Source of the DNA: Muricea muricata
Taxonomy: Eukaryota > Cnidaria > Anthozoa > Malacalcyonacea > Plexauridae
Direction: 5' to 3'
Length of the DNA stretch: 64,000 nucleotides
Assembly (NCBI GenBank): GCA_963855995.1
Contig: OY979723.1
Location: forward strand, 1,741,001-1,805,000
Part shown: positions 5,051 to 37,200 of the stretch, in pieces
Numbering within the stretch: position 1 is the first letter of the stretch
Layout: every line of letters begins with the position of its first letter
Program-made: the position numbers and the translations under genes
The notes under the pieces: model-generated
The model's database searches: none
Told to the model about the DNA's origin: nothing
The model's input: the letters and a program-made list of their open reading frames with translations, nothing else

Positions 5051-5273
5051 GGGGCCGGTTGTATCAAAGGCGTTTAGCTTAAACCGTGGATAAGAGAAAT
5101 TCAAAAATCACTTTTACACCTAGTACGGAACCGAAATTATGAGTTTAATAGAATAAATATTTAGTTTTTATATACAATTGTTCTTCTCAGGTCAAATAAC
5201 TTTAGCTGGCTTGTTTATACAGCATGCAAACTTGTTTTATAGTTTTGACTTATCCACCGTTTAAGCTAAACGC
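5051..5273. mobile_element. Truncated copy of the GGGGCCGGTTGTATC MITE
   Basis: The body matches the intact element at 60680-60921 almost base for base, from GGGGCCGGTTGTATCAAAGG through TTATCCACCGTTTAAGC. The last part of the right inverted repeat is missing and runs into unrelated sequence after AAACGC. It lies just downstream (3' side) of the Roco-like gene. Confidence 0.85.
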
Positions 5274-5426: not shown

Positions 5427-6135
5427 CTACAAAATAACACAAGTTTTGCTCTTCGGCGCTGGATCGAATCCATTTTCCTTTTGTTTCGACATAGTGGCCA
5501 AATTATCTACGATTTTGACAACTTCATTCAAAGCGTCCGTGGCGGCGTCAGCGTCCCCAATTGCAACCGCCCGCGCCACACTGGCAGTCGCATTTGCAGC
5601 CCGTACGCCCGCTGAACTCGCCTTTCTGTTCCGACTCAAATGTTCGGCCGCTGCCCCGACCACTGCAGCCGCAACAGTACACGCCGCTAATGGTTTGACC
5701 TGATCATCCACTGTCGTCATCTGATCACCCTCGAATTTCACGTGATGTTTTTTCTTCGGTTCGTTGGCCTTCCGCTGACCAGTTTCCATCGCGGGCTCGT
5801 ACGAAACCTCCGACCGTGATGAATTATTGTTCGCGGGCTCGGAACTCTTCACCGAGTTCAAATCGCCGATAGCGCCGGATACGAGTCCTCCTGTGTCCTC
5901 TGATGGCGGCTCTATGTCTCCGGTGCCGAAAATGAGATTACGACATTCGCTAATGAGCGTTTGCAGCTGCTCGACGTTAAATATGTGTGCACTGCCTACC
6001 CCAGAGCCGGCGCTAAGCGGTGTCGTGATAAGCAAAGAACAATTCAAGTCCTCTTCAAGACAGGCGCCAATCAGTGATTTGTTGAGCCCGCCAAAAAATT
6101 TAATATTCTCTTCCAAAATCGGATCTGCAATATAC
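5427..6135 (-). CDS. Exon 14 of the Roco-like gene: rest of TIR-like module, Ala-rich tail, CAAX
   Basis: Acceptor TGCTTTCAG. Begins YIADPILEENIKFFGG, continuing the TIR-like module to about LISECRNLIFG. A low-complexity acidic and serine-rich stretch, a basic patch (KANEPKKKHHVKF) and an alanine-rich helical segment follow. The last residues are PKSKTCVIL and a TAG stop at 5427-5429. Confidence 0.88.
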
Positions 6136-9100
6136 CTGAAAGCATAATGTTCATGTTATGATACAGCGTCTTGCCGAAATGGCTCATTTGAATCGTATCA
6201 TTAAGTGTAATAGACCGACGTCGCGAACAAATAAGTGAAGACAGCTACCTGCAACGAAAAACAAATATCAACCCACGTCAAATATGGATGAGACTTCAAA
6301 ATTCCGCTCAGGTCTGTCTGTCAACACGCCGCGACATTCGCACGCTTGCAAATTGACAACAGCTTCAATTTGCTGTGCGAGTAGTAATATTCACTCAACA
6401 TTGAACAACCCTATGTAATTCTTGCTCTGGGGCGACCAGGGCCTGTGTTCCCTATAATGGACATTATTATCAACTTTCGTAAGCTCGAATACAACTCTCG
6501 TTCGTGTTTGAACGGAAAATCTCATCAAAATCTCTCGCTTGTCAGCTCTCATCCAACTCTTGTTTTCGCTTCACCACGGCATGCGAGCTGAGAAAACTCT
6601 AATACAATTAAGTCTTGCTTCTGAGTTCTCATCTCAGACAACTCTTTTTTTCGTTTGACGACGATATACGAATTGCGAAAACTCTCACACGAACTCTCGC
6701 TTCTCAACTCTCAAGCAATGAGAACGGCAGTTTACATGAGAGTTGAGAAAGCGCTCATACAAAATTCTCGTGCCAAGACTCTCACCAACTCTCGTGTATC
6801 TCTTATTCATGTTTGACTGAGACCTAAGCGTTGAGAAAACTGTCGTACAAACTCTCCCTTCGCAACTGTCGCACAACTCTTCTCCTCGACCTTTTTACCA
6901 AGACATGAGCCAAATCTCGCTTCTCGACTTTCATAAACGCATATAACTTCGGTTTTCGAGAAGAGAATAAGAAAAACTCACATGCAAACTCTCGTAACTC
7001 TCTCTCGCCAAAACTTAATGACAGGCATGCCACAGATTACAAGCATTCAAAAGCCTACTTTATTTACACCCTTAAATGTTTCATTCCCTCGACCAACTTT
7101 GAATAAAATCATTATATGTTATTTATATTACCTTGATAAACATAAACTGAACTCGTGCAATCAAACTGAAACAGTTCAAACAGGCAGCGGCGCAAATAAC
7201 AGTAGTATTGCACAGCAAAGCATCGGGCAATTCTTTTACATTGTTTAGAATTCGATCGCTTTTAATGACTTTTATTACTCGAGGCTAACCAATCATAAAT
7301 AATTGAATGAAAAAGCTCATTTTAAAATTAAATTAACGGCAGAAATAGAGAGTTCAAGAAAAAAGTCATTAAATGTTATTGTTTTGAGCGTCATGTGTGG
7401 AATTCAGGGCGAAAACGCGCATAAATAAATTTAAAAAAATGAATTTACGAAATCCACTAAATTGCCGTGGTTTATGCCTGGAGAGCATTCGTTTCAAAGT
7501 TTAGTAAATACATCAGATCCTTTTCAGATAACTCAGATAAAAGCCGCACAACTACCTACACTAGACAACCACGTTTGAGATATCTTTTTCAGATAGTTCA
7601 GACACAAACTACGACAGCTTATTGTAGAATACTACATACACTGGACCACCACGTTTGAGATATCTTTTTCAGGTGGTTCAGACACAAACAACGACAGCTT
7701 ATTGTAGAGTACTATCCACACTAGAACACCACGTTTAAGATATCTTGTTCAGATAGTTCAGACTCAAACTAAGACAGCTTATTGTAGAATACTACCTACA
7801 CTGAATCCTTTGCTACCTTTGAAGTACTTTTAGTAAAATAATGGACTTACGATTTTGTCAAAAGAATTATCACAGCAGAACACTGCTGTTCATTGTTCTC
7901 CGTATCGGAAGACGCAAGTTCCGAAGACTGCAGATGAACAATGAATCCAGATTTTTCCAGATTAGTACCCAGGACTTGTGCCTCCTCTTTATGGCTTTCT
8001 TCATGGTTGATACATACACTGGATTGAGCTGGAAGACAAAATTAAAGTCAGATGCATTGTTTATTTTAGATTCGCTCAACTACGGATGACACACAGATAA
8101 CAAAAGAGTTGCCAATCCGTTCTCCTTTCTAAAGTCTACATCCAGTGGTATGTAGCTAACCTACTATGCCAGTTTCATATGTACTTTCATTATTGATTTC
8201 TTTATAAATTGATTGCTTTCACAGCCTTGGAACGACCAAATCGTCGGGCTACTGTCTACATGTACATTGAGATTACACCACCAACTCTTGTCGATGTTTT
8301 CAAATTTTGAACTGATTTGGCAAGAGTTAGAAGGCTTCTGTGTGTCACAGTCATCTCTCAACAACTTTCAGGCATTTTTTGTACCTGTTTCACGAGGGTA
8401 AGGGAGCCAAAGAAACTCTTATAAACTCCCCCTGGCCTTCCCAATTAATCACAGCCCTTATTATTTACAATAACAATAGGCTGTCAACCTGATAGGTTTT
8501 TCATCCAGCTTAGTAAATCTACTGGGACAAATATTTCTTCCTTCTTCTGAAAATCTAAAACAGAAAAAAATTACTAAAATGAATATAAAAACTTCAAATT
8601 ACAGTATGTATCAACGATAAAATATATCCAGGATTATTAATATGGTAATACGACTAACTACTGTTCTTCCTAGAGGTCCAGTAAGGATCATCACTTATTG
8701 ATCCAGTGTCACTACAGGAGGAAATCTAAACTAAACTAACTTTATTTATACTGGGTAGCTCTATCAGTTCTAAACTGTTCTTCCTAGAGGTCCAGTAAGG
8801 ATCATCTCTTGTTGATCCAATGTTACTACAATGAGAAGGAAACCTAAACTAAGAAAAACAAGTGAACTTACTTATTGGAGGAATAAGCCAAACATTTTTC
8901 TCGCAATTTTCAGTTTTTTCGATAAAATCTGTGAGTAAATGGTAAACGCTTCTGGAGAAATCGTTTACTGTCGATGGACTGCCAAACTACAATTACAGAG
9001 AAGACGTTATAAGTTCCTTGTATGTTTGCATGGTGAATATCAAATTAAAATATAATTTTGTGGAAACACCACGTAAGTTTATTATCGCAAAGCTTTTGAT

Positions 9101-12100
9101 CCATAAGCTCGGATCTTCATCAGTGCTAATAACAATAATACCTTTGCGATAATAAACTGATGTGGTGTTTTCACAAAATTATATTTTGATTTTAATCTAA
9201 AGAGATGCTATATCATGACTGTATCATAATGCCATCAAGCCTGAAACAAGTGCTTAACAGCATGCTCGAAACTTGTACAACAACTGGGAATAAGCAATGC
9301 GAACACAACCTGTCGATTGCTTGTGAACAAACACATCACTGCTATTAACCACTGAGCTTTATTTTTATCTAAAGCAAAGCCTTAGGACTAACTCACCCGA
9401 TAGTACAATCCAGGAAAATTTGACAAATAACATTCAGTGATGTGCACAAACTGGGCTAGAGCTGCCCAAGCAATACTCAGTGCTTGCTTGGTACCGTTTG
9501 TGACTTTACACCGAGCAATCATCTGCAACAATCGACATTTTGAAGACATCATGATGTCAACAACGCCAAGTCTGAAGACCAGGCCGGTACGCCAATGAGC
9601 GACGATGATTTTCGATGGCTTGAAGTTTTTGCAAGCAGCCAGGATACACAGCGCCAAGTCATCGCAGAAACCTTCCTGGAAGTGATAGTGCCATTGGACA
9701 GATACTGTTGAGCCCGGGGCTGTGTTTGGCCATACTCCAGGCTGAAAAAGTTTACTTTATGTACAGTTGCATCATAGGTATACGTACTGTATTAGAACCG
9801 ATAGAGCTTCTGTATCCACAATAAATAAAATTAGTTTAGGATAGGTTTCCTCCTGTAGTAACACTGGATCAATAAGAGATGATCCTTGCTAGGCCTCTAG
9901 GAAGAACAGTTTAGAACTGATAAAGTTACCCCGTCTAAATAAACTCAGTTTAGTTTACGTTTCTTCCTGTAGAAACACTGAATCAATAAGAGATAATCCT
10001 TACTGGACCTCTAGGAAGAATAGTTTAGAACCGATAGAGCTATCCCGTGTAAATGAAGTTAGTTTAGTTTAGGTTTCTTTCTATAGTAACACTAAATCAA
10101 TAACAAATGATCCTTACTGGACCTCTAGGAAGAACAGTTTTTAACTGATAGAACTATCCAGTATAAATAAAGTCAGTGTAGTTTAGGATTCCTTCTGTAG
10201 TAACACTGGATCAATAAGAGATGATCCTTACTGGACCTCTAGCAAGAACAGTTTAAAACTGATAGATCTATCCAGTATAAATAAAGTTAGTTTAGTTTAG
10301 GTTTCCTTCGGTAGTAAGACTGGATCAATAATAAATTATCCTTACTAGATCTCTGAGAGGAATTGAATAGAACTGATAGAGCTATCCAGTGTAAATAAAG
10401 TTAGTTTAGTTTAGGTTTCCTCCTGTAGTAACGCTGGATCAATAAGAGATGATCCAAACTGGACCTCCAGGAAAAACAGTTTAGAACTGATAGAGTTATC
10501 CAGCATAAATACAGTTAAATTAGGTCAGATTGCCATGTTACTTACGGGAGGATCGTTTGGCAACTTTAAAAAGAGTGGCAGGTGGTATCGTTTAGTAACA
10601 GAAAGGTTTTTAAAATAAGATAACGCCAGTTCAATCTCATAGCCAGCTTTCGGTGCTCCATCAACGATGACTCCAAGTTTTAGCAGGAATGGAAGGAGTT
10701 GTTTAATATCGTCTTCGTTCATGTTCCAAACCTGTAAAACAAGAAAAATAACTTGAATTGATTTAAAATCAGTTTTAGAAAATGGCACTTCACGAATGTC
10801 ACTCTGCATAATCTAACCATACTTAACTCAGCAGTGAATTTTGTACAACATCAGATCACTTTAAAGGCCTGTTCAAACGAAGCCAACATTTTGGTCCAAC
10901 ATCACCCAACATTGTTGGATGCAACATGTTGGCCTCGTTTGAACACCATGTTGGATGATGTTGGCTTAATTTTAAACTTGCTTAAAATTTCGTCCACCAT
11001 CATGCAACATTGTTGGGCCAACAATGTTGCATGATGTTGGCTTCGTTTGAACAGACCTTAAGATAGCTCGCATTCAAGAGCATGTACGACCTCTGCATGA
11101 TCTAGCCATGCTTAACTCAGCAATGAGTTCTGTACAACATCAGATTACTTTAAGATAGCTCGCATTCAAGAGCATGTACTTCTTCTGCATGATCTAACCA
11201 TGCTTAACTCAGCAATGAGTTCAGTACAACATCAGTCGCTTCAATCTAGCCCACAAACTACAAAATAGACGCCTACCTGCCAACACAGAGGCAGAAATGA
11301 CTCTCTAATCATGCCTCTGTTAACAACATCTTCGATGGCCGATCGTAACGTCCAGTCGTTAGGCCTGGTCGACGTCGGCCAAAATCGTTGAACTAATGTG
11401 GATTTCTGGAGTTTGTTCACAAAATCCTGTGGGTTTTCATCTCGGTGTATCATTGCACATGCGTTGGCAAAACAACATGGATCGGTGATGATAAGCGTGT
11501 CTTCTGGATCGTCTAACGTTCCCGGAATATTCACCCGCGATAACACCCCCTGAAATATGAAAGTTTGCACGATAGCATAGTTGAAATATTGTGTGTACAA
11601 AATTGACGTAAACAGTCTTGTCGCAAGTTGTCAATTTTACCGCCTTGTCAACAAGTTGAAACAAACTTGTCAATTTCATCAAGTTGCAACGAGTCTGTTA
11701 AAATCAGGCTTGTTGCAACTTGTCATTTGCAGTGTTGTTACAACTTGCTGAAACTTGACAACCAAATTGCAACAGACCTGTCGTCACCAAGCTGTCGCAA
11801 GGCATGCGAACACATGCTAATATCGGCTTGTTGGTCAAGCTTTTGTGCGAAGTCAACAGGCTTGTTGCAACTTTCGCGTTTTTGACTGTGTAATCGAGTA
11901 TCATACTTCTATCAAATGAATGTTTCAAAGCCTGAAAACAAGCCATCTTGTCAAGCAATGTTAGAGGCATTCTACATATTTCGCAGCCATCCTCAGAGAT
12001 ATGAAAAACTAGATCCCATTAATCTGATGATGGTTATCAAATAGAATTGAGTACTCGCAGGAAAGCGTTAAGTCGTCACGCAAATATTTCGTGCACTTAA

Positions 12101-15100
12101 ATTGGATCGCCACCAATCCCACTCTGCCCCATATAACAATTGGTAGAGTGGCGGTCTAGAAACCTTAGGATGCGAGTTCAACGAATTTTTCGTATCCACG
12201 CTTGAATGCTTCCATGTTTGCCCAATTCGGCACAACATCGTTGCGGAAACAAAATTTGCTTCCGTGCAACCCAAAATGTTTCCGAACAAATCGAAAAATA
12301 TTTCGGGAGCACAAAATTTAAAATACAGACGGGTACCTTTTTGGTCAAAGTTTGGGTCACCGACTCCAATTCTTCGTCGCCATGACAACCAAGTGCTGAC
12401 GTCATCGTTTTGTAATCTCGACCGGACATGACGATTCCCTTTCCGTCGTGCAACGGGCGCAACTTCTTCATTACACCCAACTCCTGTTCCGTGAAATGAT
12501 TCGAGTTCGGCGATCTTTCAGGGTCAAAGAAACGCTTTAGTATCGCGTGCCGAAGATCTGAAAGCCCCTAGAAAAATATGTGAATACTATAAGATTTCGC
12601 CATATTGCCACTCGAGAGCAGAAGACATATAACCTTTCGAAACGTTACCTCCTCAATAAACTAACCTTTCGAAACGTTACCTCCTCAATAAACTAACCTT
12701 TCCCGTAACGGCGCTGGTTAGATAAACGGTTGAACATACATTGGGTCGATTTTCAACAATCTTCTCCAACTTTTCAATGCGAGCTTTTATCCATACATTC
12801 GACTGCAGTTCCCTGTTGGTACATCAGATAAGAAATACCATTGAAATCATTTGGTCTTCTTCATTTCAGAGCATTCACAATCTATATGACTGTTTCATTG
12901 TAAAATACCGGTGCTGCTTACACTAGTTCAGATACAGACCATGGCAGCTTATTGTACAATACTACCTACACTGGACCACCACGTTTGAGATATCTTTTTC
13001 AGGAAGTTCAGACACAAAACACGACAGCTTATTATAGAATACTATCTACACTGGACCATCACGTTTGAGATATCTTTTTCAGGTAGTTCAGACACAAACC
13101 ACGACAGCTTATTGTAGAATACTACCAACACTGGACCACCACGTTTGAGATATCTTTTTCAGGAAGTTCAGACACAAACCACCACAGCTTATTTTGGAAT
13201 ACTACCTACACTGGACAACCACGTTTGAGATGTCTTTTTCAGGTAGTTCAGACACAAACCACGACAGCTTATTATAGAACACTACCTACACAAGACCACC
13301 ACGTTTAAGATATCCTTTTCCAGGTTGTTCAGAACTGGACAATTACACTGCATGCAAATCACGACCAACAAAGCCTAGTGATATTTCAAAAGAAACAAAC
13401 CTCAACGATACGATCTCTTCGTTAATTTCTTTGAGAACTCCCTCTTCCATCTTCTTAATCTCGTCCAGAAGATTTTCGCATGGGTCTTCGGAAACCTCGC
13501 AGTTACTGGCCGCTAGGATTATCTCTGCACTGGGACACTGAAGACAGAGAAAGACATAGGATCTACCTTTAAAGGGCGATGGCAACAAAAAAAACTGTTT
13601 GCTAATGTGAAAGAGCTTTTGAAATAACTACCAAAGCCAGTTATGTCTTTCTCATATCTTACTTTATCCTTGAGATATTCGGAGTGAAACATGCGACATA
13701 AAGCCTGGGCTACATGTAAATGTTACTTTTGCATATGTTAGTTAGCTTCACTGCTAGCTCCCTGTGTGCAGGTGGATTTTACTGAGTTTTGTACGTCATG
13801 CAAGCTTTTCTCTCACATTAAACATGTTTGATACACAAGAAAAGGTTGCATGAGGTAATTAACTCAGTAAAATTAATCCTGACTAACGTCACACTGCGTC
13901 ACACTGAAGTGCCTTTGTTCCGAACGTCAAACTTTGCTTACGTATATCGGTTCTGTTCAAGGTATTGAAAGATCACACGCCAGTTTTTCTGCGCATAAAG
14001 CCGACTTTTTTGTAATGGATAGCCTGTCTCATCTGCCATTGCTTTAAGCAAGGAAGAGTTTATAAACTAATCACGGCCATCTGAAAATCAACCTTTTTAT
14101 TTTCCACATAATTTTTATCATCGTTTTAGTTTAGTTAGGGCGAGGTTGAGATGTTACCGTGTCAAAATAATTGTAAATAATAATAGTAAATAATTGTAAA
14201 TAACTCCGTGGGGAAGTGATGATGATGTCTGTCTTACAAGGTTGTCCTACACCGAACTTTCTTACGGGGCTTCGGCGGTGTATTGGTCAGACTACTCGCC
14301 TTCACCTCTGAGTTTTCGAGTTTGATCCCCATCTTAATATGGACTTGAACCCAGTCTTCATGTGAAATGAGTACAGTCAACGCTCTGCCGAAAATCGTGG
14401 GTTTTCTCCGGGGACTCCGGTTTCCTAATTCACCTTCAAGAAGCACTGTATCATCGATTTACACAGGAAAATGCAGCACGCGAGTTGCAGCATACCTGCA
14501 GACAATTTATAACAAGTCTGCTCAAAAGCTGTTGAAAGTTGTTTTCGCACTGCGTGTTCCAAGTTGTTGGAAAAAGTTTGGAGCAAGCTGTTAAAGTGGC
14601 TATGAAACAAAATTTTGTCCAACTATTTATGGATTGCATTGCAAAGATCGCTTAAAATCACAGGGTAACATCTTTTATAGAATTCCTCTTATTCTTTTTC
14701 TTCTTGATATATTCAACTTTATTGGATATGCAAATTGCACAACTTATGACATCACAGTGCATAATAACTTTTCAAAAATATCAGTAATTTGCAATGTGAT
14801 CAATATATTCCGTACAAAAGTGCATGCACTAAGCGATCAATCGTAGACTGCATATACTTACAGCACAGTTTTAGCTGTTCCTCGTTGTCATATGCCACAA
14901 AATTAGCAATCTCAGATACTCATTATGCACAGTGATGTCATAAGTTGTGTAATTTACATATTGAATAAAGTTAAATATCTCGAGAATGAAGAAAGATAGA
15001 GAAATTGTACCATTGTCATCTTAAGGGATCGTTACAGCGCAATCAATAAATAGTTGCACAAAATTTCGTGTCACAGACACTTTAACAACTTGTGAGAAGC

Positions 15101-16267
15101 TTGATGGGACTATCAGAGTATATTGTTACAAGGTTGCTCCAACGAGACTGTGATAGAGTCACAATATGACAATATTGTTACAGGGCGACTTGTGTTGTCA
15201 ACTTTGTGACCATCTTGTTACAAGAGGTCTGTATCAGAGTTGTTTGAGACAACCTTGTAACAAGTCTAATATTATCCATAATATACAGCTCAAGATAAGA
15301 CTACAAAAAAAAAAACAAATTCCGAAAATAGACATCTTGCATTCTCGATATTCAAGAAAAAAACAAGAAAATGACGGAGTTGGTTAATATATTTCATGTT
15401 TATTCCAAAGAGCTTGTCTACCTTAGCTTGAATAGTTTGAACCCACTGCGGCACAAGTCCGGCATCTCTTGGATTGCGAACGTTGAAAATCAACACAAAC
15501 AATGCTGTCTCGGGAATACACAGTTGTTGAATGGTCCACAAAGCCTAAGGAGAAACCGTCACAATGTTTATTGGCATCATAAACCTGAATCAATCAGTAG
15601 TTAATGCCATAATAATAAGGTTTATCATTCAATACCTCATGCCCACAAGTGTCCCAGACTTTTACACTGCCATCCAGGTCATCCTCTGTTAGATTGTCGT
15701 TAAAATATTCCCGACACTCTTTGGCAACTAAAAAAGAGACATTTGGTCAGTTCATAGATATTAGAAAAAGGGATGGATTGGCAACTCTTTTGTTATCTAT
15801 ATTTTATCTTCAGTTGAGAACACCGGAAGCAAACATTGCCCAACTTGTATGGTAATTATGCTCATGAACTCAATTTCGTTTATGCGCATAATTACCATAG
15901 CGAGTTGTGCAATGTTTGTTTCCAGTTTATTCAAAATAGCTGAACCGAAGATCATGTATAGTATTGAATAGCGTTGCCAATCCATTCCCCTTTTCTAATA
16001 TCTATGGTCAGTCAATCTGTTGGTCATATGTCATAAGTATCTCTCTTAATTACCACTGCCTAGACAAAAAGCTATTGCCCAAAACTCACCAGGACTTTCA
16101 TTACTGAACGGCCTCCAATCCTCGACCAGTAACGAACAGCCAGGGCCATCGGTGACTTGAGGGTTGGGAGATTTCAAACATTGATACAAGCTGGTCTTTC
16201 CGCTTCCTTTACTGCCTACAAATACGACATGGCCACGTCTAATCTGTGGTGCTTTATCTGTGCCCAT
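5427..16267 (-). CDS. Roco-family protein: Roc GTPase, COR, TIR-like module, CAAX box (14 exons)
   Basis: Spliced model: 16267-16090, 15727-15636, 15544-15422, 13537-13401, 12812-12698, 12567-12337, 11549-11277, 10731-10546, 9741-9397, 8986-8872, 8554-8489, 8354-8223, 8028-7851, 6135-5427. All introns are GT-AG and all phases agree, giving 959 aa. Residues 1-215 are a Roc GTPase domain: P-loop GSKGSGKT at 18-25, DTCG at 85-88, TSAVTG at 209-214; the G4 motif is SNCE (142-145). Residues 293 to about 600 fit COR, with YHLPLFLKLP near its centre. Residues about 665-794 resemble a TIR fold (VCINH, a helix ending SGF, VIILLTKSY). An acidic/polar linker and an alanine-rich segment (about 874-930) follow, and the protein ends in CVIL. 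Roc-COR proteins are GTP-switched dimers; a TIR module suggests innate-immune or NAD-linked signalling, and CVIL predicts geranylgeranyl anchoring to membrane. Function is inferred. An in-frame TGA three codons before the ATG supports the start. Exon 12 is the least certain. Confidence 0.8.
6480..7010. repeat. Degenerate AACTCTCG-rich tandem repeat
   Basis: In the last intron of the Roco-like gene, words such as CAACTCTCG, AACTCTCGCTTCTC and GAGAACTCTC recur at irregular 35-60 bp intervals. No coding content. Confidence 0.7.
7490..7810. repeat. 80-bp minisatellite, about four copies
   Basis: The word ACGACAGCTT or a one-base variant recurs at 7611, 7691 and 7771, an exact 80-bp period. Each unit contains CACGTTTGAGATATCTTTTTCAG. 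The array begins about 40 bp after the exon 13 donor in the direction of transcription. The same family fills an intron at 12920-13340. Confidence 0.92.
7851..8028 (-). CDS. Exon 13 of the Roco-like gene: TIR-like N-terminal half
   Basis: Acceptor TTGTCTTCCAG, donor GTAAGT. Encodes SSVCINHEESHKEEAQVLGT, then NLEKSGFIVHLQ and CSAVIILLTK. The order strand, helix with GF turn, strand, then a 'VIxLLS'-like strand is that of a TIR domain. Exits in phase 2; the split serine codon is completed by exon 14. Confidence 0.75.
8223..8354 (-). CDS. Exon 12 of the Roco-like gene (uncertain boundaries)
   Basis: Open without stops over 132 nt, phase 1 at both ends, donor GTGAAA. The acceptor (GTTGAGAG) has no good pyrimidine tract, so either the left boundary or the exon itself is doubtful. 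Skipping it would keep the frame. It encodes a polar linker ending TIWSFQG before the TIR-like module. Confidence 0.45.
8489..8554 (-). CDS. Exon 11 of the Roco-like gene (66 nt)
   Basis: A very good polypyrimidine tract, TTTTTTTCTGTTTTAG, precedes it; the donor is GTTGAC. Phase 1 at both ends. Encodes FQKKEEIFVPVDLLSWMKNL. Short but phase-compatible with both neighbours. Confidence 0.6.
8660..8850. repeat. About 115-bp repeat, two copies, inverted relative to 9830-10520
   Basis: Units contain GTTCTTCCTAGAGGTCCAGT and GATCCAATGTTACTACA, the reverse complement of the array at 9830-10520. The pair starts about 20 bp into the intron after the exon 10 donor. Confidence 0.88.
8872..8986 (-). CDS. 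Exon 10 of the Roco-like gene
   Basis: Acceptor TAATTGTAG, strong donor GTAAGT. Encodes FGSPSTVNDFSRSVYHLLTD and then FIEKTENCEKNVWLIPPI. Phase 0 in, phase 1 out. It completes the region after COR; no motif by itself. Confidence 0.7.
9042..9192. repeat. Foldback element with 51-bp arms and a CTGATGA-containing loop
   Basis: The left arm 9042-9092 and right arm 9142-9192 are complementary with only a few mismatches (shared core TTTATTATCGCAAAG). On the minus strand the 49-nt loop reads CTGATGAAGATCC, eight bases, then GGATCAAAAG. A CUGAUGA box followed by a short GATCC/GGATC stem recalls hammerhead ribozymes, but the expected GAAA box is altered. Confidence 0.75.
9397..9741 (-). CDS. Exon 9 of the Roco-like gene: COR C-terminal half
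   Basis: Acceptor CTTTTTCAG, donor GTGAGT. Residues 446-560 have the HWRTGLVFRLG strand seen in the second COR lobe, then CRLLQMIARC and a helix ending LYYR. 115 codons, phase 0 at both ends. Confidence 0.87.
9830..10520. repeat. About 115-bp tandem repeat, about six copies
   Basis: Units run from AGGTTTCCTCCTGTAGTAAC through CTGGATCAATAAGAGATGAT and CCTCTAGGAAGAACAGTTTA to AGTTAGTTTAG. The array fills most of the intron between exons 8 and 9 and starts about 25 bp after the exon 8 donor. Confidence 0.92.
10546..10731 (-). CDS. Exon 8 of the Roco-like gene: COR
   Basis: Acceptor TTGTTTTACAG, donor GTAAGT. Residues 384-445 include LLPFLLKLGVIVDG and YHLPLFLKLPNDPP, matching the COR pattern of a helix, a short hairpin and a strand ending in 'P-x-L-P'. 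Confidence 0.87.
10803..11240. repeat. 92-bp tandem repeat interrupted by a TTAA element
   Basis: TCTGCATGATCTA-type starts lie at 10803, 11092 and 11184. The last two are 92 bp apart; the first interval is 289 bp because a transposon sits inside that copy. Each unit contains CTCAGCAATGAGTTC and ATAGCTCGCATTCAAGAGCA. Confidence 0.92.
10861..11061. mobile_element. TTAA-flanked MITE inserted in a tandem repeat copy
   Basis: The ends are AGGCCTGTTCAAACGAAGCC and its inverted counterpart GGCTTCGTTTGAACAGACC, with TTAA at 10861-10864 and 11058-11061. The interior is a chain of ACATGTTGG/CCAACATTG palindromes. The neighbouring repeat unit has ACTTTAAGATAGC uninterrupted, the empty site. The extra length of the interrupted copy (197 bp) equals the 193-bp element plus one 4-bp target duplication. 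Confidence 0.95.
11277..11549 (-). CDS. Exon 7 of the Roco-like gene: start of COR
   Basis: Acceptor TATTTCAG, donor GTAGGC. Residues 293-383 begin GVLSRVNIPGTLDDPEDTLI followed by ITDPCCFANA, which resembles the COR winged-helix start (a GxL turn, then 'dPxWL'-type strand). Ends ESFLPLCWQ. Confidence 0.85.
11600..11890. repeat. Degenerate CTTGTTGCAACTTG repeat
   Basis: Irregular copies of CTTGTTGCAACTTGTCA and CAAGTTGAAACAAACTTGTC, part of the dispersed CAACTTG family, in the intron between exons 6 and 7. Confidence 0.8.
12120..12182 (+). repeat. Possible tRNA-derived SINE head
   Basis: ATTGGTAGAGTGGCGG resembles a pol III A box with D-arm, followed by TCTAGAAACC and then GATGCGAGTTCAACGA where a B box would lie. 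Spacing fits a tRNA, but the B box is imperfect and no complete cloverleaf is drawn. Probably a SINE relic, not a functional tRNA. Confidence 0.3.
12337..12567 (-). CDS. Exon 6 of the Roco-like gene: Roc to COR linker
   Basis: Acceptor TTTTTCTAG, donor GTACCC. Residues 216-292 begin GLSDLRHAILKRF, the last Roc helix, then a charged linker. 77 codons, phase 0 at both ends. The frame stays open for about 50 codons past the donor, but the donor is needed for the phase of exon 7. Confidence 0.82.
12631..12702. repeat. 32-bp tandem unit covering the exon 5 splice donor
   Basis: AACCTTTCGAAACGTTACCT begins at 12631 and 12663, and AACCTTTC again at 12695, an exact 32-bp period. On the minus strand the unit carries AAAG|GTTAGT, so the authentic donor is repeated 32 nt downstream. 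Use of the second donor would add 32 nt and bring in an in-frame TAA. Confidence 0.92.
12698..12812 (-). CDS. Exon 5 of the Roco-like gene: G5 motif
   Basis: Entry phase 2 completes AGG (Arg 177). Ends with CSTVYLTSAVTGK, the G5 strand and SA motif of the Roc domain. Its donor GTTAGT lies inside a 32-bp tandem unit, so a second copy of the donor lies 32 nt into the intron. Confidence 0.88.
12920..13340. repeat. 80-bp minisatellite, about five copies
   Basis: ACGACAGCTT-type words at 13021, 13101, 13181 and 13261 give an 80-bp period. Same family and same orientation as 7490-7810. It starts about 60 bp after the exon 4 donor. Confidence 0.93.
13401..13537 (-). CDS. Exon 4 of the Roco-like gene: altered G4 motif
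   Basis: Acceptor TGTCTTCAG, donor GTTTGT. Encodes residues 132-176. AEIILAASNCEV occupies the place of the usual V-G-(N/T)-(K/H)-x-D strand, so the base-specifying lysine and aspartate are not conserved. An acidic helix rich in E and K follows. Confidence 0.87.
13938..14066 (-). other. Orphan exon-like open frame (42 codons)
   Basis: Between exons 3 and 4 of the Roco-like gene. It encodes FINSSLLKAMADETGYPLQK followed by SRLYAQKNWRVIFQYLEQ, which looks protein-like, and GTAAGC overlaps its stop as a possible donor. Its phases do not fit between exons 3 and 4, so it is not in the model. It may be a remnant of another gene or a transposon. Confidence 0.3.
14240..14450 (-). repeat. Dispersed repeat with GTGGGTTTTCTCCGGG core
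   Basis: GTGGGTTTTCTCCGGGGACT at 14396 recurs with small changes at about 46280 and 59197. The flanking words CAACGCTC(T/C)(G/C)CC also recur at 59180. A dispersed, probably retroposed family; orientation not established. Confidence 0.5.
14591..15085. mobile_element. TTAA-flanked foldback element, 495 bp
   Basis: TTAAAGTGGCTATGAAACAA at the left opposes GTGTCACAGACACTTTAA at the right. The complementarity continues inward (CAACTATTTATGGATTGC) and reappears deeper inside (GCACAACTTATGACATCAC). It lies in the intron between exons 3 and 4. Non-coding. Confidence 0.8.
15100..15265. repeat. TTGTTACAAG-type degenerate repeat
   Basis: Words such as TTGTTACAAGG, CAACGAGACTGTGATAGAGT and CCTTGTAACAAGTCT recur, belonging to the CAACTTG-like dispersed family. 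Confidence 0.6.
15422..15544 (-). CDS. Exon 3 of the Roco-like gene
   Basis: Acceptor TCTCCTTAG, donor GTAGAC. Encodes residues 91-131, with ALFVLIFNVRNP, the hydrophobic strand after switch II in Roc domains, then a helix ending WVQTIQAK. 41 codons, phase 0 at both ends. Confidence 0.88.
15636..15727 (-). CDS. Exon 2 of the Roco-like gene: G3 motif
   Basis: Acceptor TTTTTTAG, donor GTATTG. Encodes residues 60-90 ending VWDTCGHE, the Walker B / G3 switch II motif of Ras-like GTPases (DxxG). Confidence 0.9.
15752..16007. repeat. Foldback element in intron 1 of the Roco-like gene
   Basis: CATAGATATTAGAAAAAGGG pairs with CCCCTTTTCTAATATCTATG. Inner segments AAACATTGCCCAACTTG and TGGTAATTATGC pair with GCATAATTACCAT and CAATGTTTG. 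A partial copy of one end lies at 8090-8140, in the intron between exons 12 and 13. Confidence 0.85.
16090..16267 (-). CDS. Exon 1 of the Roco-like gene: P-loop
   Basis: Encodes residues 1-59 and one base of codon 60. The P-loop GSKGSGKTS is preceded by a hydrophobic strand, HVVFV. It ends at a strong donor, GTGAGT (plus strand 16084-16089), in phase 1. Confidence 0.9.
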
Positions 16268-18320: not shown

Positions 18321-18370
18321 TTTAACGAGATTGTTGACAGCGAGCGAGCAAGTTTATAACGGAAGTTAGC
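18321..18370 (+). pseudogene. Decayed N-terminal coiled-coil sequence in the 5' UTR of the first BTB gene
   Basis: TTTAACGAGATTGTTGACAG aligns with TTTAGCGAGATTGTAGAGAG in the coding N-terminus of the paralogue (about 20045). Here the frame reads FNEIVDSERASL and then TAA, and it is out of frame with the downstream ATG. The first gene therefore appears to have lost the coiled-coil segment that its paralogue keeps. Confidence 0.75.
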
Positions 18371-18402
18371 AAAAACTCGGAGAACGAAAATTATTTACCA
18401 AT

Positions 18403-19284
18403 ATGAACAACGATGATATCATAAATCTGAATGTCGGTGGAACAAAGTTAACTACACTGCGCTCAACGTTATGTCAGGTCGAAGATTCCTTGCTGGCTGC
18501 GATGTTCAGCGGACGATGGGAAGATAACATTAAGCGAGATCAAGATGGCGCCGTCTTCTTCGACTTCAATCCGCAATATTTCGTTTTGATTTTAGACTAT
18601 CTTCGCGAGAAGAAAATTTCAACACTAGAGAATCCTCCACCACTGCCAAGAGTACCTGAAGATCAGGAGGAAAGTTTCTACAGACTTGTGCAGTATCTTG
18701 GTTTGAGCAATGAAATCAGTATGCCCTATGAGAATACCAGAACACCGCAAAGCGAAAGATTCAGTTTGTTAAAGCGCAGCCATGGAACTAGTCTTGAAGA
18801 AGGAAGGAAGGTTGCTGTTTGCGATAAAACAGGACCTGAATATGTTCTGGGAGAAAACGTTTACAATGGAGGAACTGTGAATATGACGCTGGAGTTACAG
18901 TCACATCAAAGCGTGTTTGTTGGTATAACGGAAGGCGATCTCAGGCTATTGTCTCAAAATATGAACGCTTTGTCCACCATAAAAAGAAACCTTTCTTGTC
19001 GATGGCCTGGCTCTTATGGATGGGCATTAAATATCGATCATTATCGTATGACAGTTATCACAGTGTACCAAGACGGGTCGTGTACAACAAACACAAACTC
19101 ACAGAGGTTTGTAAGACTACCGACACCATATACGGTAAAATTAGTCTTGGAATGCGAGAAAGGGAAGCTGTCATCTACCATTGGAACTGAGATATGTAAC
19201 ATTGATATACCGAAGAGAAAAATGTGGAGACTGGCTGTAACTTTGTATGATGAAAATCAGACAATACGCATTATGGATGATTAA
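18403..19284 (+). CDS. KCTD-type BTB protein with SPRY-like C-terminus (paralogue 1)
   Basis: Intronless, 293 aa. Residues about 5-100 are a BTB/T1 domain of the KCTD class: IINLNVGGTKLTTLRSTL, then LLAAMFSGRW and FFDFNPQYF(V)LILDYL. Such domains oligomerise, and in many KCTD proteins recruit cullin-3. The C-terminal half (about 128-293) has the order FVGIT, GSYGWAL, YTVKLVLECEKGKL and MWRLAVTLYDENQTIRI, which resembles a SPRY/B30.2 beta-sandwich; that call is weaker. The start ATG directly precedes the BTB core, and an upstream N-terminal extension is decayed. It lies head-to-tail with its paralogue. Substrate and cellular role are unknown; a cullin-3 adaptor is an inference. Confidence 0.88.
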   Translation: MNNDDIINLNVGGTKLTTLRSTLCQVEDSLLAAMFSGRWEDNIKRDQDGAVFFDFNPQYFVLILDYLREKKISTLENPPPLPRVPEDQEESFYRLVQYLGLSNEISMPYENTRTPQSERFSLLKRSHGTSLEEGRKVAVCDKTGPEYVLGENVYNGGTVNMTLELQSHQSVFVGITEGDLRLLSQNMNALSTIKRNLSCRWPGSYGWALNIDHYRMTVITVYQDGSCTTNTNSQRFVRLPTPYTVKLVLECEKGKLSSTIGTEICNIDIPKRKMWRLAVTLYDENQTIRIMDD

Positions 19285-19765: not shown

Positions 19766-19984
19766 CTGTCTAAAAGTGGTCTGAATAGTAACTTAAAATG
19801 CATTGTATTGAAATTTGACACCTAAGCATTTGCATAATCCGGAAGAAATTTCACAATATTTCATTCCCTGAAATAGGACCCTTTCACTTACGAAAAACAA
19901 ACAAACTAAGTCTGTTGTTTGGGTGCTTTGTTTTCTTTTACGAAGTTAAAATTACTGTTGCTTTACTTATCGAAGAAATCAAAC

Positions 19985-20974
19985 ATGGACGGGGAGAATC
20001 TGTTGACAAGATTTGACGAGATGGTTAAGAAATTCAGACATGAATTTAGCGAGATTGTAGAGAGCGAGAGAGCAAAGATCAAAGCGGAAATTGAAGCTTA
20101 CAAAGCAGAGAAGGAAAGAATCGAAGCCGTGAATGTGAGAGATGATGATCTTATCAATCTAAACGTCGGTGGGACAAAGATAACTACGACCAGATCGACG
20201 TTATGTCAGGTCGAAAATTCCTTGCTGGCTGCCATGTTCAGCGGACGATGGGAAGATAATATTAAGCGAGATCAAGAAGGCGCCGTATTCTTCGACTTCA
20301 ATCCGCAACATTTTATTTTGGTTTTGGACTATCTTCGAGTGAAGAAAATTAAAACGCCAGAGAATCCTCCACCACTTCCCAAAGTGCCTGAAGATCAGGA
20401 GGAAAGTTTCAACAGCCTTGTGCAGTATCTTGGTTTGAGCAACGAAATCATTGCACCGTCTAAAATTATGCCAAACGAGAAATTCAATTCGTGCAGCCCT
20501 GGAGTCAGTCTTCAGGAAGGCGGCCTGGTTGCTGTTCATGATCAAACCTCAAAGCATAAATATGTACTCGGAGAAAATGTGTACAGCGAAGGGACAGTGA
20601 ATCTGAAGTTAAAGTTGGAGTCTTTTAAAGACAACAGGTGGACCTTTGTTGGTGTAGCCCAAGAAGATATTAAACGTCCACTAGATTTACACGGCCACGA
20701 ATCATGCGGGTGGTCTGGTTCATATGGATGGGTTCTCGGGCAGGAGGGTGGTCGAGTGTGTAAAAACAAGTCATGTACAATAGACGAAACTTTAATGAAT
20801 GTTTCAAAGCAAGGTGATACGGTGAAACTGGTCTTGGATTGCAAGACAGGCAAGCTTTCATTACATTTACCTACTGGTCAGAAATTTCACATGGATATAC
20901 CAAAGGGGAAAACCTGGAGACTGAATGTAACTCTCTATTCTCCAAATGATAAAATACGCATTGTAGAGGATTAA
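19985..20974 (+). CDS. KCTD-type BTB protein with coiled-coil N-terminus and SPRY-like C-terminus (paralogue 2)
   Basis: Intronless, 329 aa from the ATG at 19985; upstream in-frame codons lack another ATG. Residues 1-52 are a charged coiled coil (FSEIVESERAKIKAEIEAYK). Residues about 55-155 are the BTB/T1 domain (LINLNVGGTKITTTRSTL, LAAMFSGRWEDNI, FFDFNPQHF). Residues about 190-329 resemble SPRY: FVGVAQED, SGSYGWVLG, DTVKLVLDCKTGKLSL and WRLNVTLYSPNDKIRIV. The BTB DNA is about 90% identical to paralogue 1 by eye while the C-terminal halves differ greatly. The coiled coil could set oligomer state. A cullin-3 adaptor role is known for some KCTD proteins and only inferred here. Confidence 0.9.
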   Translation: MDGENLLTRFDEMVKKFRHEFSEIVESERAKIKAEIEAYKAEKERIEAVNVRDDDLINLNVGGTKITTTRSTLCQVENSLLAAMFSGRWEDNIKRDQEGAVFFDFNPQHFILVLDYLRVKKIKTPENPPPLPKVPEDQEESFNSLVQYLGLSNEIIAPSKIMPNEKFNSCSPGVSLQEGGLVAVHDQTSKHKYVLGENVYSEGTVNLKLKLESFKDNRWTFVGVAQEDIKRPLDLHGHESCGWSGSYGWVLGQEGGRVCKNKSCTIDETLMNVSKQGDTVKLVLDCKTGKLSLHLPTGQKFHMDIPKGKTWRLNVTLYSPNDKIRIVED

Positions 20975-28850: not shown

Positions 28851-29489
28851 AGCTACCATTCAGTTATATAGCTACCGTAAAGACATAATAAAAGTTACTA
28901 TGATACCAACAGGATAAGACAGTGTGCTACCAGTACTTGCACACAAGCTGTAACCATAACTATTGGATTATGATATGTAATAAACAAGGTAATTTCTCAA
29001 CAATGATATTTCTCCATTACCGTCGAAACATTTTGCTAGCCTTCAAGGAAAGTCCTGCAATGGATCTTAACTGGAACAATGGAAAATCTGCACTGGCTCA
29101 ACATCCTGAAAATTTATATACAACCAGTCCTGAATAAATGCTCAAAATGTTCTGTAAAATTCCCACACTTTTCTTTCAGATATGTGCTTGCAGTGACCAT
29201 CTGAAACTACATGATTCAAAACTACACATGTACATAGGGCAGTAAATATTCTATTAACGCATGCTTGATTTTAACAGAATTATACAAGGCAAGGACTATA
29301 TATAGCCAAAGTATACACCCAGGTGATTACATTGAAGCAGCAGAGCAGTATATTATACTAAACCTGCATCAGTATATAAACCTCAGTGTGAGAGGGTGGT
29401 ATATAAATCTCTGTACTACATATCTTTACAATTGTGAAGTATCACGAAACCTGACATGCATTCATTATAAGCTGATAGACCAGAGCTGT
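28851..29489. other. No gene seen; transition into the next satellite
   Basis: AT-rich unique sequence. The first partial units of the next satellite (GTATATAAACCTC) appear from about 29370. Confidence 0.5.
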
Positions 29490-32300
29490 ATATAAACCTC
29501 TGTGTTACAGGGTGGTATATAAATCCCTGTACTCTATTTATTCACAGCCGAGCAGTATAATAATAAATGCATACAACATAATAATATTGTTACACCAGAG
29601 CTGTATATAAACCTCTGTGTTACGGGGTGGTATATAAATCCCTGTACTCTATTTATTCACAGCCGAGCAGTATAATAATAAATGCATACAACATATGTTG
29701 TTACACCGGAGCTGTATATAAACCTCTGCGTTACGGGTTGGTATATAAATCCCTGTACTCTATCTCATCACAGCTGAGCAATAATAAATGCATTCAACAT
29801 ATGTTGTTACACCAGAGCTGTATATAAACCTCTTTGTTACAGGGTGGTATATAAATCCCTGTACTCTTATTTATTCACAGCTAAGCAGTATAATAATAAA
29901 TGCATTCAACATATGTCAACATATGTTATTACACCAGAGCTGTATATAAACCTCTGTGTTATGGGGTGGTATATAAATCCCTGTACTCCATTTATTCACA
30001 GCTGAGCAGTATAATAATAAATGCATACAACATATGTTGTTACACCAGAGCAGTATATAAACCTCTGTGTTACAGGGTGGTATATAAATCCCTGTACTCT
30101 ATTTACTCACAGCTGAGCAGTATAATAAATGCATTCAACATATGTTGTTACACCAGAGCTGTACATAAACCTCTGCGTTACAGGGTGGTATGTAAATCCC
30201 TGTACTCCATTTATTCACACAGCTGAGTAGTATAATAATAAATGCATTCAACATAATATTGTTGCACCAGAGCTGTATATAAACCTCTTTGTTACAGGGT
30301 GGTATATAAATCCCTGTACTCTTATTTATTCACAGCTGAGCAGTATATATAATAAATGCATTCAACATATGTCATTACACCAGAACTGTATATAAACCTC
30401 TGTGTTACGGGGTGGTATATAAATCCCTGTACTCTATTTATTCACAACTGAGCAGTATAATAATAAATGCATTCAACATAATAATATTGTTACACCAGAG
30501 CTGTATATAAACCTCTGTGTTACAGGGTGGTATATAAATCCCTGTACTCTATTTATTCACAGCTGAGCAGCATAATAACATTGTTACACCAGAGCTGTAT
30601 ATAACCCTCTGTGTTACAGGGTGGTATATAAACCCCTGTACTCTATTTATTCACAGCTGAGCCGTATATATAATAAATGCATTCAACATATGTCATTACA
30701 CCAGAACTGTATATAAACCTCTGTGTTACGGGGTGGTATATAAATCCCTGTACTCTATTTATTCACAACTGAGCAGTATAATAATAAATGCATTCAACAT
30801 AATAATATTGTTACATCAGAGCTGTATATAAACCTCTGTGTTACAGGGTGTTATATAAATCCCTGTACTCTATTTATTCACAGCTGAGCAGTATATATAA
30901 TAAATGCATTCAACATATGTCATTACACCAGAGCTTTATATAAACCTCTGTGTTACAGGGTGGTGTATAAATCCCTGTACTCTATTTATTCACAGCTGAG
31001 CAGTATAATAACATTGTTACACCAGAGCTGTATACAAACCTCTGTGTTGTGGGGTGGTTATAAATCCCTGTACTCTATTTATTCACGGCTGAGCAGTATA
31101 ATAACATGGTTACAGCAGAGCTGTATATAAACCTCTGTGTTACGGGGTGGTATATAAATCCCTGTACTGTATTTATTCACAGCTGAGCAGTATAATAATA
31201 AATGCATTCAACATATGTTGTTACACCAGAGCTGTATATAAACCTTTTTGTTACAGGATGGTATATAAATCCCTGTGCTCTATTTATTCACAGCTGAGCA
31301 GTACAATAATAAATGCATTCATCATATGTTGTTACACCAGAGCTGTATATAAACCTCTGTGTTACAGGGTGGTATATAAATCCCTGTACTCTATTCATAG
31401 CTGAGCAGTACAATAATAAATGCATTCATTATATGTTGTTACACCAGAGCTGTATATAAACCTCTGTGTTACAGGGTGGTATATAAATCCCTGTACTCTA
31501 TTTATTCACAGCTGAGCAGTATAATAAATGCATTCAACATATGTTGTTACACCAGAGCTGTATATAAACCTTTTTGTTACAGGATGGTATATAAATCCCT
31601 GTGCTCTATTTATTCACAGCTGAGCAGTACAATAATAAATGCATTCATCATATGTTGTTACACCAGAGCTGTATATAAACCTCTGTGTTACAGGGTGGTA
31701 TATAAATCCCTGTACTCTATTCATAGCTGAGCAGTACAATAATAAATGCATTCATTATATGTTGTTACACCAGAGCTGTATATAAACCTCTGTGTTACAG
31801 GGTGGTATATAAATCCCTGTACTCTATTTATTCACAGCTGAGCAGTATAATAAATGCATTCAACATATGTTGTTACACCAGAGCTGTATATAAACCTCTG
31901 TGTTACAGGGTGGTATATAAATCCCTGTACTCTATTTATTCACAGCTGAGCAGTACAATAATAAATGCATTCATCATATGTTGTTACACCAGAGCTGTAT
32001 ATAAACCTCTGTGTTACAGGGTGGTATATAAATCCCTGTACTCTATTCATAGCTGAACAGTGCAATAATAAATGCATTCATTATATGTTGTTACACCAGA
32101 GCTGTATATAAACCTCTGTGTTACAGGGTGATATATAAATCCCTGTACTCTATTTATTCACAGCTGAGCAGTATAATAAATGCATTCAACATATGTTGTT
32201 ACACCAGAGCTGTATATAGACCTCTGTGTTACAGGGTGGTATATAAATCCCTGTACTCTATTTATTCACAGCTGAGCAGTATAATAATAAATGCAATCTA
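29490..32300. repeat. About 110-bp satellite with two TATA-box-like words per unit
   Basis: Roughly 25 units, each with GAGCTGTATATAAACCTCTG, GGTGGTATATAAATCCCTGT and ATTCACAGCTGAGCAGTA. Unit length varies around 108-115 bp. From 31147 to 32130 units fall into three-unit blocks spaced 326-329 bp. The array ends near 32300 with an inverted CTGCTCAGCTGTGAAT. Open frames seen in some copies are by-products of unit lengths divisible by three. Confidence 0.95.
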
Positions 32301-34254: not shown

Positions 34255-37200
34255 AATATAAATTGTGATAATGGAAGCAAGAAAGATTAAAACCAAATAT
34301 GAACAATCAAACTGAGAAGACAGATAAGATGGAGAGAATAGAGGAATTTGAAATTGTTAGAAAAACTAGAGGTAGAAGGCAAGCACGCTTGAAATTGCAA
34401 GATAAAAGTTGGAAGATCTTTAAAGTACCACTAGAGAGATGAAAATATGGAAAGTAGAACAGAAGATTTGGAAATTGTTGACCACAGCAGAAGCAGGACT
34501 GAAATTACATAATAAAAGTAGGAAGATGTTGAAAGAAGAACAGGATAATTTGAGATTGTTGGGTAGTAACTGAAACATTGGAAAATAATCGTAGGAAGAT
34601 GTCGAAGGTAACAACAGAAAGATGAAAATATATTTTGAAAATCGCAATACAACTTCTGGAAAGGAATCAGGGCCGAATATGAAGAAGCAGCCTGAAAAGA
34701 TGGAAAGAAGCTGAAAAAGATAGAAAGGGAATAGAAGAGTTGGAAATCATTGAGAAGACTACAGCTAGATGGGGAATGTTGCAATAAGAAGATGAAAAAT
34801 AGATTGAAAATTGTGAGAAAAGACTACTGGAAACAAGGTCGGGACCGAATATAAAGATACAAGAAAAAGAATCGAAGAATTGGAAATCGTTTAGAAGACT
34901 GCAGCTAAAAGACTGAAATTGAAAAATAAAAGTCGGGAGATGAGGAACGTTGCAATAAAAAGATGAAAGTAGATTAAACATTGTAAGAGAAGAGTAGTGG
35001 AAACAAAGTTAGAACCGAATATAAAGAAGCAAGAAGAAGAATCGAAGAATTGGAAATCGTTGAGAAGACTACAGCTAAAAGACTGAAATTGAAAGATAAA
35101 AGCAGGAAGATGGGGAATGTTGCAATATCAAGATGAAAATTGATTGAACATTGTGAGAGAAGACTACTGGAAACAAATCAGATTCGAATATAAAGAACCA
35201 AGAAGAAGAATCAAAGAATTGGAAATTGTTGAGAAGACTACAGCTAAAAGACTGAAATTGAAAGATAAAAGCAGAAAGATGAGGAATGTTACAATGTCGA
35301 GATGAAAATTGATTGAACATTGTGAGAGAAGACTACTGGAAACAAATCAGATTCGAATATAAAGAACCAAGAAGAAGAATCAAAGAATTGGAAATCGTTG
35401 AGAAGACTAGAGCTAAAAGACTGAAATTGAAAGATAAAAGCAGAAAGATGAGGAATGTTACAATGTCGAGATGAAAATTGATTCAACGTTGTGAAAGAAG
35501 ACTACTGGAAACAAAGTCAGATTCGAATATAAAGAAACAAGAAGAAGAATCGAAGAATTGGAAATTGTTGAGAAGACTACAGCTAAAAGACTGGAATTGA
35601 AAGATAAAAGCAGAAAGATGAGGAATGTTACAATGTCAAGATGAAAATTGATTCAACGTTGTGAGAGAAGACTACTGGAAACAAAGTTAGAACCGAATAT
35701 AAGGAAACAAGAAGAGGAATCGCAGAATTGGAAATCGTTGAGAAGACTACAGCTAAAAGACTGAAATTGAAAGATAAAAGCAGGAAGATGGGGAATGTTG
35801 CAATATCAAGATGAAAATTGATTGAACATTGTGAGAGAAGACTACTGGAAACAAATCAGATTCGAATATAAAGAACCAAGAAGAAGAATCAAAGAATTGG
35901 AAATTGTTGAGAAGACTACAGCTAAAAGACTGAAATTGAAAGATAAAAGCAGAAAGATGAGGAATGTTACAATGTCGAGATGAAAATTGATTGAACATTG
36001 TGAGAGAAGACTACTGGAAACAAATCAGATTCGAATATAAAGAACCAAGAAGAAGAATCAAAGAATTGGAAATCGTTGAGAAGACTAGAGCTAAAAGACT
36101 GAAATTGAAAGATAAAAGCAGAAAGATGAGGAATGTTACAATGTCGAGATGAAAATTGATTCAACGTTGTGAGAGAAGACTACTGGAAACAAAGTCAGAT
36201 TCGAATATAAAGAAACAAGAAGAAGAATCGAAGAATTGGAAATTGTTGAGAAGACTACAGCTAAAAGACTGGAATTGAAAGATAAAAGCAGAAAGATGAG
36301 GAATGTTACAATGTCAAGATGAAAATTGATTCAACGTTGTGAGAGAAGACTACTGGAAACAAAGTTAGAACCGAATATAAGGAAACAAGAAGAGGAATCG
36401 CAGAATTGGAAATCGTTGAGAAGACTACAGCTAAAAGACTGAAATTGAAAGATAAAAGCAGGAAGATGGGGAATGTTGCAATATCAAGGTGAAAATTGAT
36501 TAAACATTGTGAGAAGACTACTGGAAACAAAGTCAGAACCGAATGTAAAGAAACAAGAAGAAGAATCAAAGAATTGGAAATCGTTAAGTCTTCTACAGCT
36601 AAAAGACTGAAATTGAAAGATAAAAGCAGGAAAATGGGAAATGTTGCAATAACAAGATGAAAAATAAATTAAACATTGTGAGAGAAGCTAGACTACTGGA
36701 AACAAGGTTAGAACCGAATATAAAGAAACAAGAAGAAGAATCGAAGAATTAGAAATCGTTGAAAAGACTACAGCTGAAAGACTGAAATTGAAAGATAAAA
36801 GCAGGAAGATGAGACACGTTGCAATAAGAAGATGCATGAAAAATAGATCGAACATTGTGAGAGAAGAATACTAATAGAAAAAAGGTTAGAACCCAATATA
36901 AAGAAGCAAGATGAGAAGATGAGAAAATGCAAGAAGAATCAAAGAATTGGAAATTGTTGAGAAGCCTATAGTAGAAAACGGACTGAAATGGGAAGATGAA
37001 AGTTGGAAGGTGTTTGCAGATGAAATAATGAAACGGAATGATAAAAAAGACGTAAAGAAAAATAGAAGAATTGGACGTTGTTGAGAAGATTACAGTAGAA
37101 AGTAGAAAAGGAGAAATAAAAGATGAATATGTATTGAAAATGGTAATGTATTGAACACTAGAAGCAAGGTTAGCAGTGAATGTAAAGAAACAAATTGAGA

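Follow-up and report, generated by a model that had tools for sequence, protein, structure and literature searches.

A multi-exon gene on the minus strand of Muricea muricata contig OY979723.1, spliced from the sequence of a 64,000-nucleotide stretch (the whole of which we call the window), runs from position 16267 to position 5427 and contains an open reading frame of 915 aa in 13 exons. The frame begins with a Roc GTPase domain that lies near those of Roco proteins, includes a partial match to the TIR_2 family, and ends with the residues CVIL. Our favored reading, held tentatively and with somewhat less than even confidence, is that of a Roco-related animal protein in which the Roc domain is followed by a diverged COR-like middle, a TIR-like scaffold, and a CAAX-type box that would anchor the TIR-like part at a membrane. 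The exons and the parts of the protein to which they correspond are as follows.

Exon 1, 16090..16267, minus strand: start ATG and P-loop (G1) of Roc, aa 1–59
Exon 2, 15636..15727, minus strand: Roc, with DTCG (G3)
Exon 3, 15422..15544, minus strand: Roc core
Exon 4, 13401..13537, minus strand: Roc, with degenerate G4 SNCE (aa 142–145)
Exon 5, 12698..12812, minus strand: end of Roc, with G5 TSAVTGK (aa 209–215)
Exon 6, 12337..12567, minus strand: post-Roc segment, called from open frame and splice sites only
Exon 7, 11277..11549, minus strand: COR-A-like by eye, without support in tests and with no Pfam match
Exon 8, 10546..10731, minus strand: COR-like by eye, without support in tests
Exon 9, 9397..9741, minus strand: COR-B-like by eye (HWRTGL ... 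FPGL), without support in tests; low-confidence model
Exon 10, 8872..8986, minus strand: inter-domain segment
Exon 11, 8489..8554, minus strand: inter-domain segment
Exon 12, 7851..8028, minus strand: first half of the TIR-like segment, aa 621–680, with Pfam TIR_2 match
Exon 13, 5427..6135, minus strand: second half of the TIR-like segment, aa 681–750 (6134–5925), then linker, alanine-rich part, CVIL (5441–5430), and stop

Judged from its sequence, this looks like a genuine animal gene. All 12 introns have GT-AG ends and matching phase, as had been claimed for them, although roughly one donor in two is weak past the GT (GTATTG, GTAGAC, GTTTGT, GTACCC, GTAGGC, and GTTGAC). The exons have a G+C content of 46.7%, against 37.2% for the introns and 35.6% for the window; an in-frame stop begins 9 nt 5′ of the exon 1 ATG, and candidate poly(A) signals are located downstream of the gene at 5149, 4498, and 4357. 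The original prediction had 14 exons and 959 aa, for which an additional 132 nt would be needed. A scan of the gene for an extra in-phase exon of 90–200 nt with good splice sites found none, and under looser criteria three open segments had exactly the required length of 132 nt, with donors that fit 2 to 4 of the 9 consensus bases; the predicted model of 13 exons is retained over that of 14. Repeats of 80 bases in intron 4 (12924–13333) and intron 12 (7551–7802) look like one unit. When the exon 12 frame is run on into intron 12, a TAA is present directly past the split codon (7850–7847, minus strand), and a transcript retaining this intron would therefore encode 680 aa with half of the TIR-like part.

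Published GTPase–TIR proteins and the CVIL terminus

The CVIL terminus was correctly predicted: the four residues (aa 912–915) are in the spliced frame at the end of the protein, are followed by TAG, and constitute a CAAX-type motif. A terminal leucine (CaaL) suits geranylgeranyl transferase I (GGTase-I), and the motif predicts that the protein may be lipid-anchored and thereby tethered to a membrane. The possible membrane anchor may be the only unusual feature of the protein.

It had been assumed that Roco proteins lack TIR partners, and the architecture was accordingly presented as a distinct one. The premise is mistaken, with passages of three papers describing Roc/COR together with TIR in sea anemones and others (PMC5094078, PMC9334734, PMC11378527), and the claim of a distinct architecture fails as written because a GTPase and a TIR in one protein are already published, in the passages concerned, for actiniarian NG1 and NG3, Aplysia, oyster, Trichoplax, a red alga, and bacteria. 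There are several points of comparison. First, Novel Gene 1 (NG1), which is present in all actiniarians examined and absent as an orthologue from vertebrates, is described in the relevant section of PMC5094078 as having leucine-rich repeats (LRRs), Roc/Ras, and TIR_2, plus a COR that is detected at low threshold some 300 aa downstream. The likeness, as far as that text description goes, is that a single protein combines a Roc-type GTPase, TIR_2, and a COR region that is at most weakly detectable; the two are set apart by description in that NG1 has LRRs whereas the Muricea protein has none, and the NG1 section makes no mention of a CAAX box. (The search for LRRs, with Pfam at E up to 10, covered the 915 aa from the ATG, upstream of which a spliced exon is possible.) Second, Novel Gene 3 (NG3) of sea anemones is described in the same source as having kinase, death, TIR, central Roc/COR, and SH3 domains (PMC5094078); it shares the presence of Roc/COR with TIR, the COR of the Muricea protein being putative, but its kinase, death, and SH3 domains have no Pfam counterparts in the Muricea protein. 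Third, Aplysia TLR-like, MyD88-like, and TIR proteins carry Roc and/or COR according to passages of PMC9334734 and thus share TIR with these domains, but they differ in having LRR, EF-hand, MBT, or death-like partners. Fourth, the TPR-ROCO-TIR protein named for Chondrus crispus in a passage of PMC11378527 shares Roco and TIR but differs in its TPR repeats and its red-algal host. Finally, TIR_2 with GTPase domains is reported in bacteria, oyster, and Trichoplax in the passages of PMC5094078; our own analysis found no bacterial relative. What may be new is thus a variant that lacks leucine-rich repeats and ends in a CAAX box.

In favor of a functional rather than an incidental CVIL, the motif matches a CaaL-type site for GGTase-I and is located right at the close of a last exon that is open for 709 nt. 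Nonetheless, the motif is only four residues long and is read in one species, a literature search of titles and abstract openings yielded none that describes a comparable prenylated protein of the Roco or TIR type, and CAAX goes unmentioned in the available NG1 text (PMC5094078) and Aplysia passages (PMC9334734). The protein could then be a soluble NG1-like Roco-TIR relative with an incidental CVIL, its TIR-like part acting as in cytosolic adaptors, an alternative that we consider unlikely though by no means negligible.

The TIR-like segment and the exon 12–13 join

The segment at aa 621–750 is likely a TIR, half-matched and below the curated cut-off. Pfam TIR_2 matches aa 625–686 when the whole protein is searched (15.7 bits, E = 0.021) and aa 625–689 when the segment is searched alone (20.5 bits, E = 7e-4), and because both scores are below the curated cut-off of 28 bits we refer to the segment as TIR-like. 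TIR_2 is the sole family reported for it, and among nine machine shuffles of the segment none gave a TIR and three gave other families (E of 0.032 to 0.18). There was no TIR match in PDB sequences, PHROGs, PADLOC, or NCBIfam, the last searched with the whole protein. The TIR that was originally assigned to residues 665–794 therefore moves to aa 621–750, its first half borne out by TIR_2 at a score under the cut-off and its second half having no sequence match.

The TIR_2 match spans profile positions 1–70 of 122 and stops almost at the exon 12–13 join, and therefore it barely tests that join. Since intron 12 is also long at 1715 nt, the gene model could fuse two things, with transcripts that stop soon past exon 12 and an exon 13 that is part of another or an alternative transcript, such that neither the second half of the TIR nor the CAAX box would be in the Roc protein. 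This is quite improbable, in that the exon 13 acceptor and phase both fit and the structural model of exon 13, although of low confidence (pLDDT 41), starts with helix-strand-strand-helix, a succession of predicted elements compatible with the latter half of a TIR.

TIR domains with NADase activity have a catalytic Glu in alpha-C. In a by-eye alignment the corresponding position is occupied by Asn, with a Glu one residue earlier (YIADPILEENI), and we infer that the TIR-like part is more likely a scaffold than an enzyme; the description of the protein as an effector is thus left without support.

The Roc domain and the region that follows it

The G domain matches Pfam Roc (PF08477) at aa 14–144 with 35.3 bits against a cut-off of 27 (E = 1.6e-8), and the spliced frame carries all three of the motifs that had been noted, the P-loop GSKGSGKTS (aa 18–26), DTCG (85–88), and TSAVTG (209–214). 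The motif for guanine specificity, G4, is NKxD/THxD. Here it is SNCE (aa 142–145), with Glu in place of Asp, and because of this degeneracy any guanine specificity is putative; the proposal that the protein is GTP-switched is a reading of motifs.

The affinities of the G domain were examined in trees that set it among other G domains encoded in the Muricea genome, the class names being our own reading of the rows. In a tree of 26 rows the window domain joins four Roco Roc domains (L031, from an LRRK-type gene, together with L033, L038, and L041) with support of 89/93. In a second tree of 23 rows, from which L026, L029, and the long row L036 were left out after the first tree, the window domain and the same four Roc domains are separated from 18 Ras-, Rho-, and Rab-like rows with support of 96/92, and constraining the window domain to the ten Rho-like rows of this set gives a p-AU of 0.040, values that are to be read with the long branches in mind and with a Rho group chosen only once the first tree had been seen. 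There is thus moderate support for the G domain belonging with Roco proteins and not with Rho, Rab, or Ras, and the Roc assignment of the original prediction is upheld by both Pfam and tree. A non-Roco identity, as a large GTPase of the Rho/Ras type whose middle is unrelated and whose end is a Rho-like CAAX box, would account for the best PDB sequence matches of the G domain (RhoU at E = 4.5e-7, RhoB, and Rac2, with a range of 4.5e-7 to 8.2e-7), for a Pfam Ras score of 33.1 bits that is close behind that of Roc, and for a COR that is undetectable, but is very improbable in view of this grouping and the outcome of the Rho constraint.

A COR region is expected by position after Roc, and the sequence here is COR-like by eye; its assignment is unproven. 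Neither a Pfam search of the protein nor a PDB sequence search gave a COR match, the hhalign score for COR (16.1) is lower than the ten best of 100 shuffles, and a COR-B model scores −1.6 bits, a value reached by 157 of the 914 shuffles that were scored. Of the COR-like region proposed earlier, then, the by-eye likeness stands, without support in Pfam, PDB, hhalign, or the COR-B model.

Profile searches of the genome (453 Mb in 74 contigs) identified at least 97 Pfam Roc matches, with 150 of 199 candidates scored, and 14 COR-A matches at E up to 1, nine of them over the cut-off. The window gene is in neither set because its Roc is split across several exons. Seven long single-exon frames of 652–689 aa contain Roc and COR (L038, L039, L040, and L050 on contig C9, and L041, L042, and L044 on contig C4) and represent a Roco family that is expanded in this genome; in the three that were compared with Pfam, Roc is over the cut-off in all and COR-A in two. 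There are also LRRK-like genes, L031 and L052 with L054, which have Roc, COR-like, and kinase-like frames (the kinase by eye, not by Pfam), and a third gene, L053, with Roc and COR-A. The LRRK-type genes share Roc with the window gene, and the L031 G domain is on the same side of the tree; L031 differs in having LRRs ahead of Roc and kinase-like frames after it (as read by eye).

A possible membrane-bound TIR scaffold

The COR region, dimerization, prenylation, membrane location, and TIR recruitment that we infer for the favored Roco-related scaffold would be connected as follows. The N-terminal Roc GTPase and the strongly diverged COR-like middle would be parts of one signalling protein, whose CAAX-type box would permit geranylgeranylation and so bring the TIR-like part to the membrane. 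Nucleotide state and COR-mediated pairing would draw the TIR-like modules together there, and these would serve as protein–protein scaffolds that, once gathered, would bring in further TIR proteins from an immune pathway.

Roc GTPases with TIR are already published, and no tested function came up in the published passages. Should the CAAX box prove genuine and conserved, this gene would provide a testable member in which a single TIR-like protein carries both a GTP switch and a lipid anchor, and such a member could reveal a coupling of Roco and TIR signalling outside LRRK2 and Toll receptors. A broader proposal, which we think rather unlikely, is that there is a conserved subfamily of LRR-less animal Roco proteins in which a TIR scaffold under GTP control is fixed to membranes through a C-terminal prenyl anchor; such a subfamily would, if it exists, be a membrane TIR signalling platform independent of Toll-like receptors.

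Elsewhere in the window, two adjacent long open frames on the plus strand (18370–19281 and 19910–20971) each match BTB_2 over the cut-off and have similar C-terminal parts, and are likely a local duplicate pair. Long tandem arrays are present at 1–1565, 29372–32295, 34767–36911, and 40489–42633, with units of about 127/381, 111, 170/339, and 425 bases.
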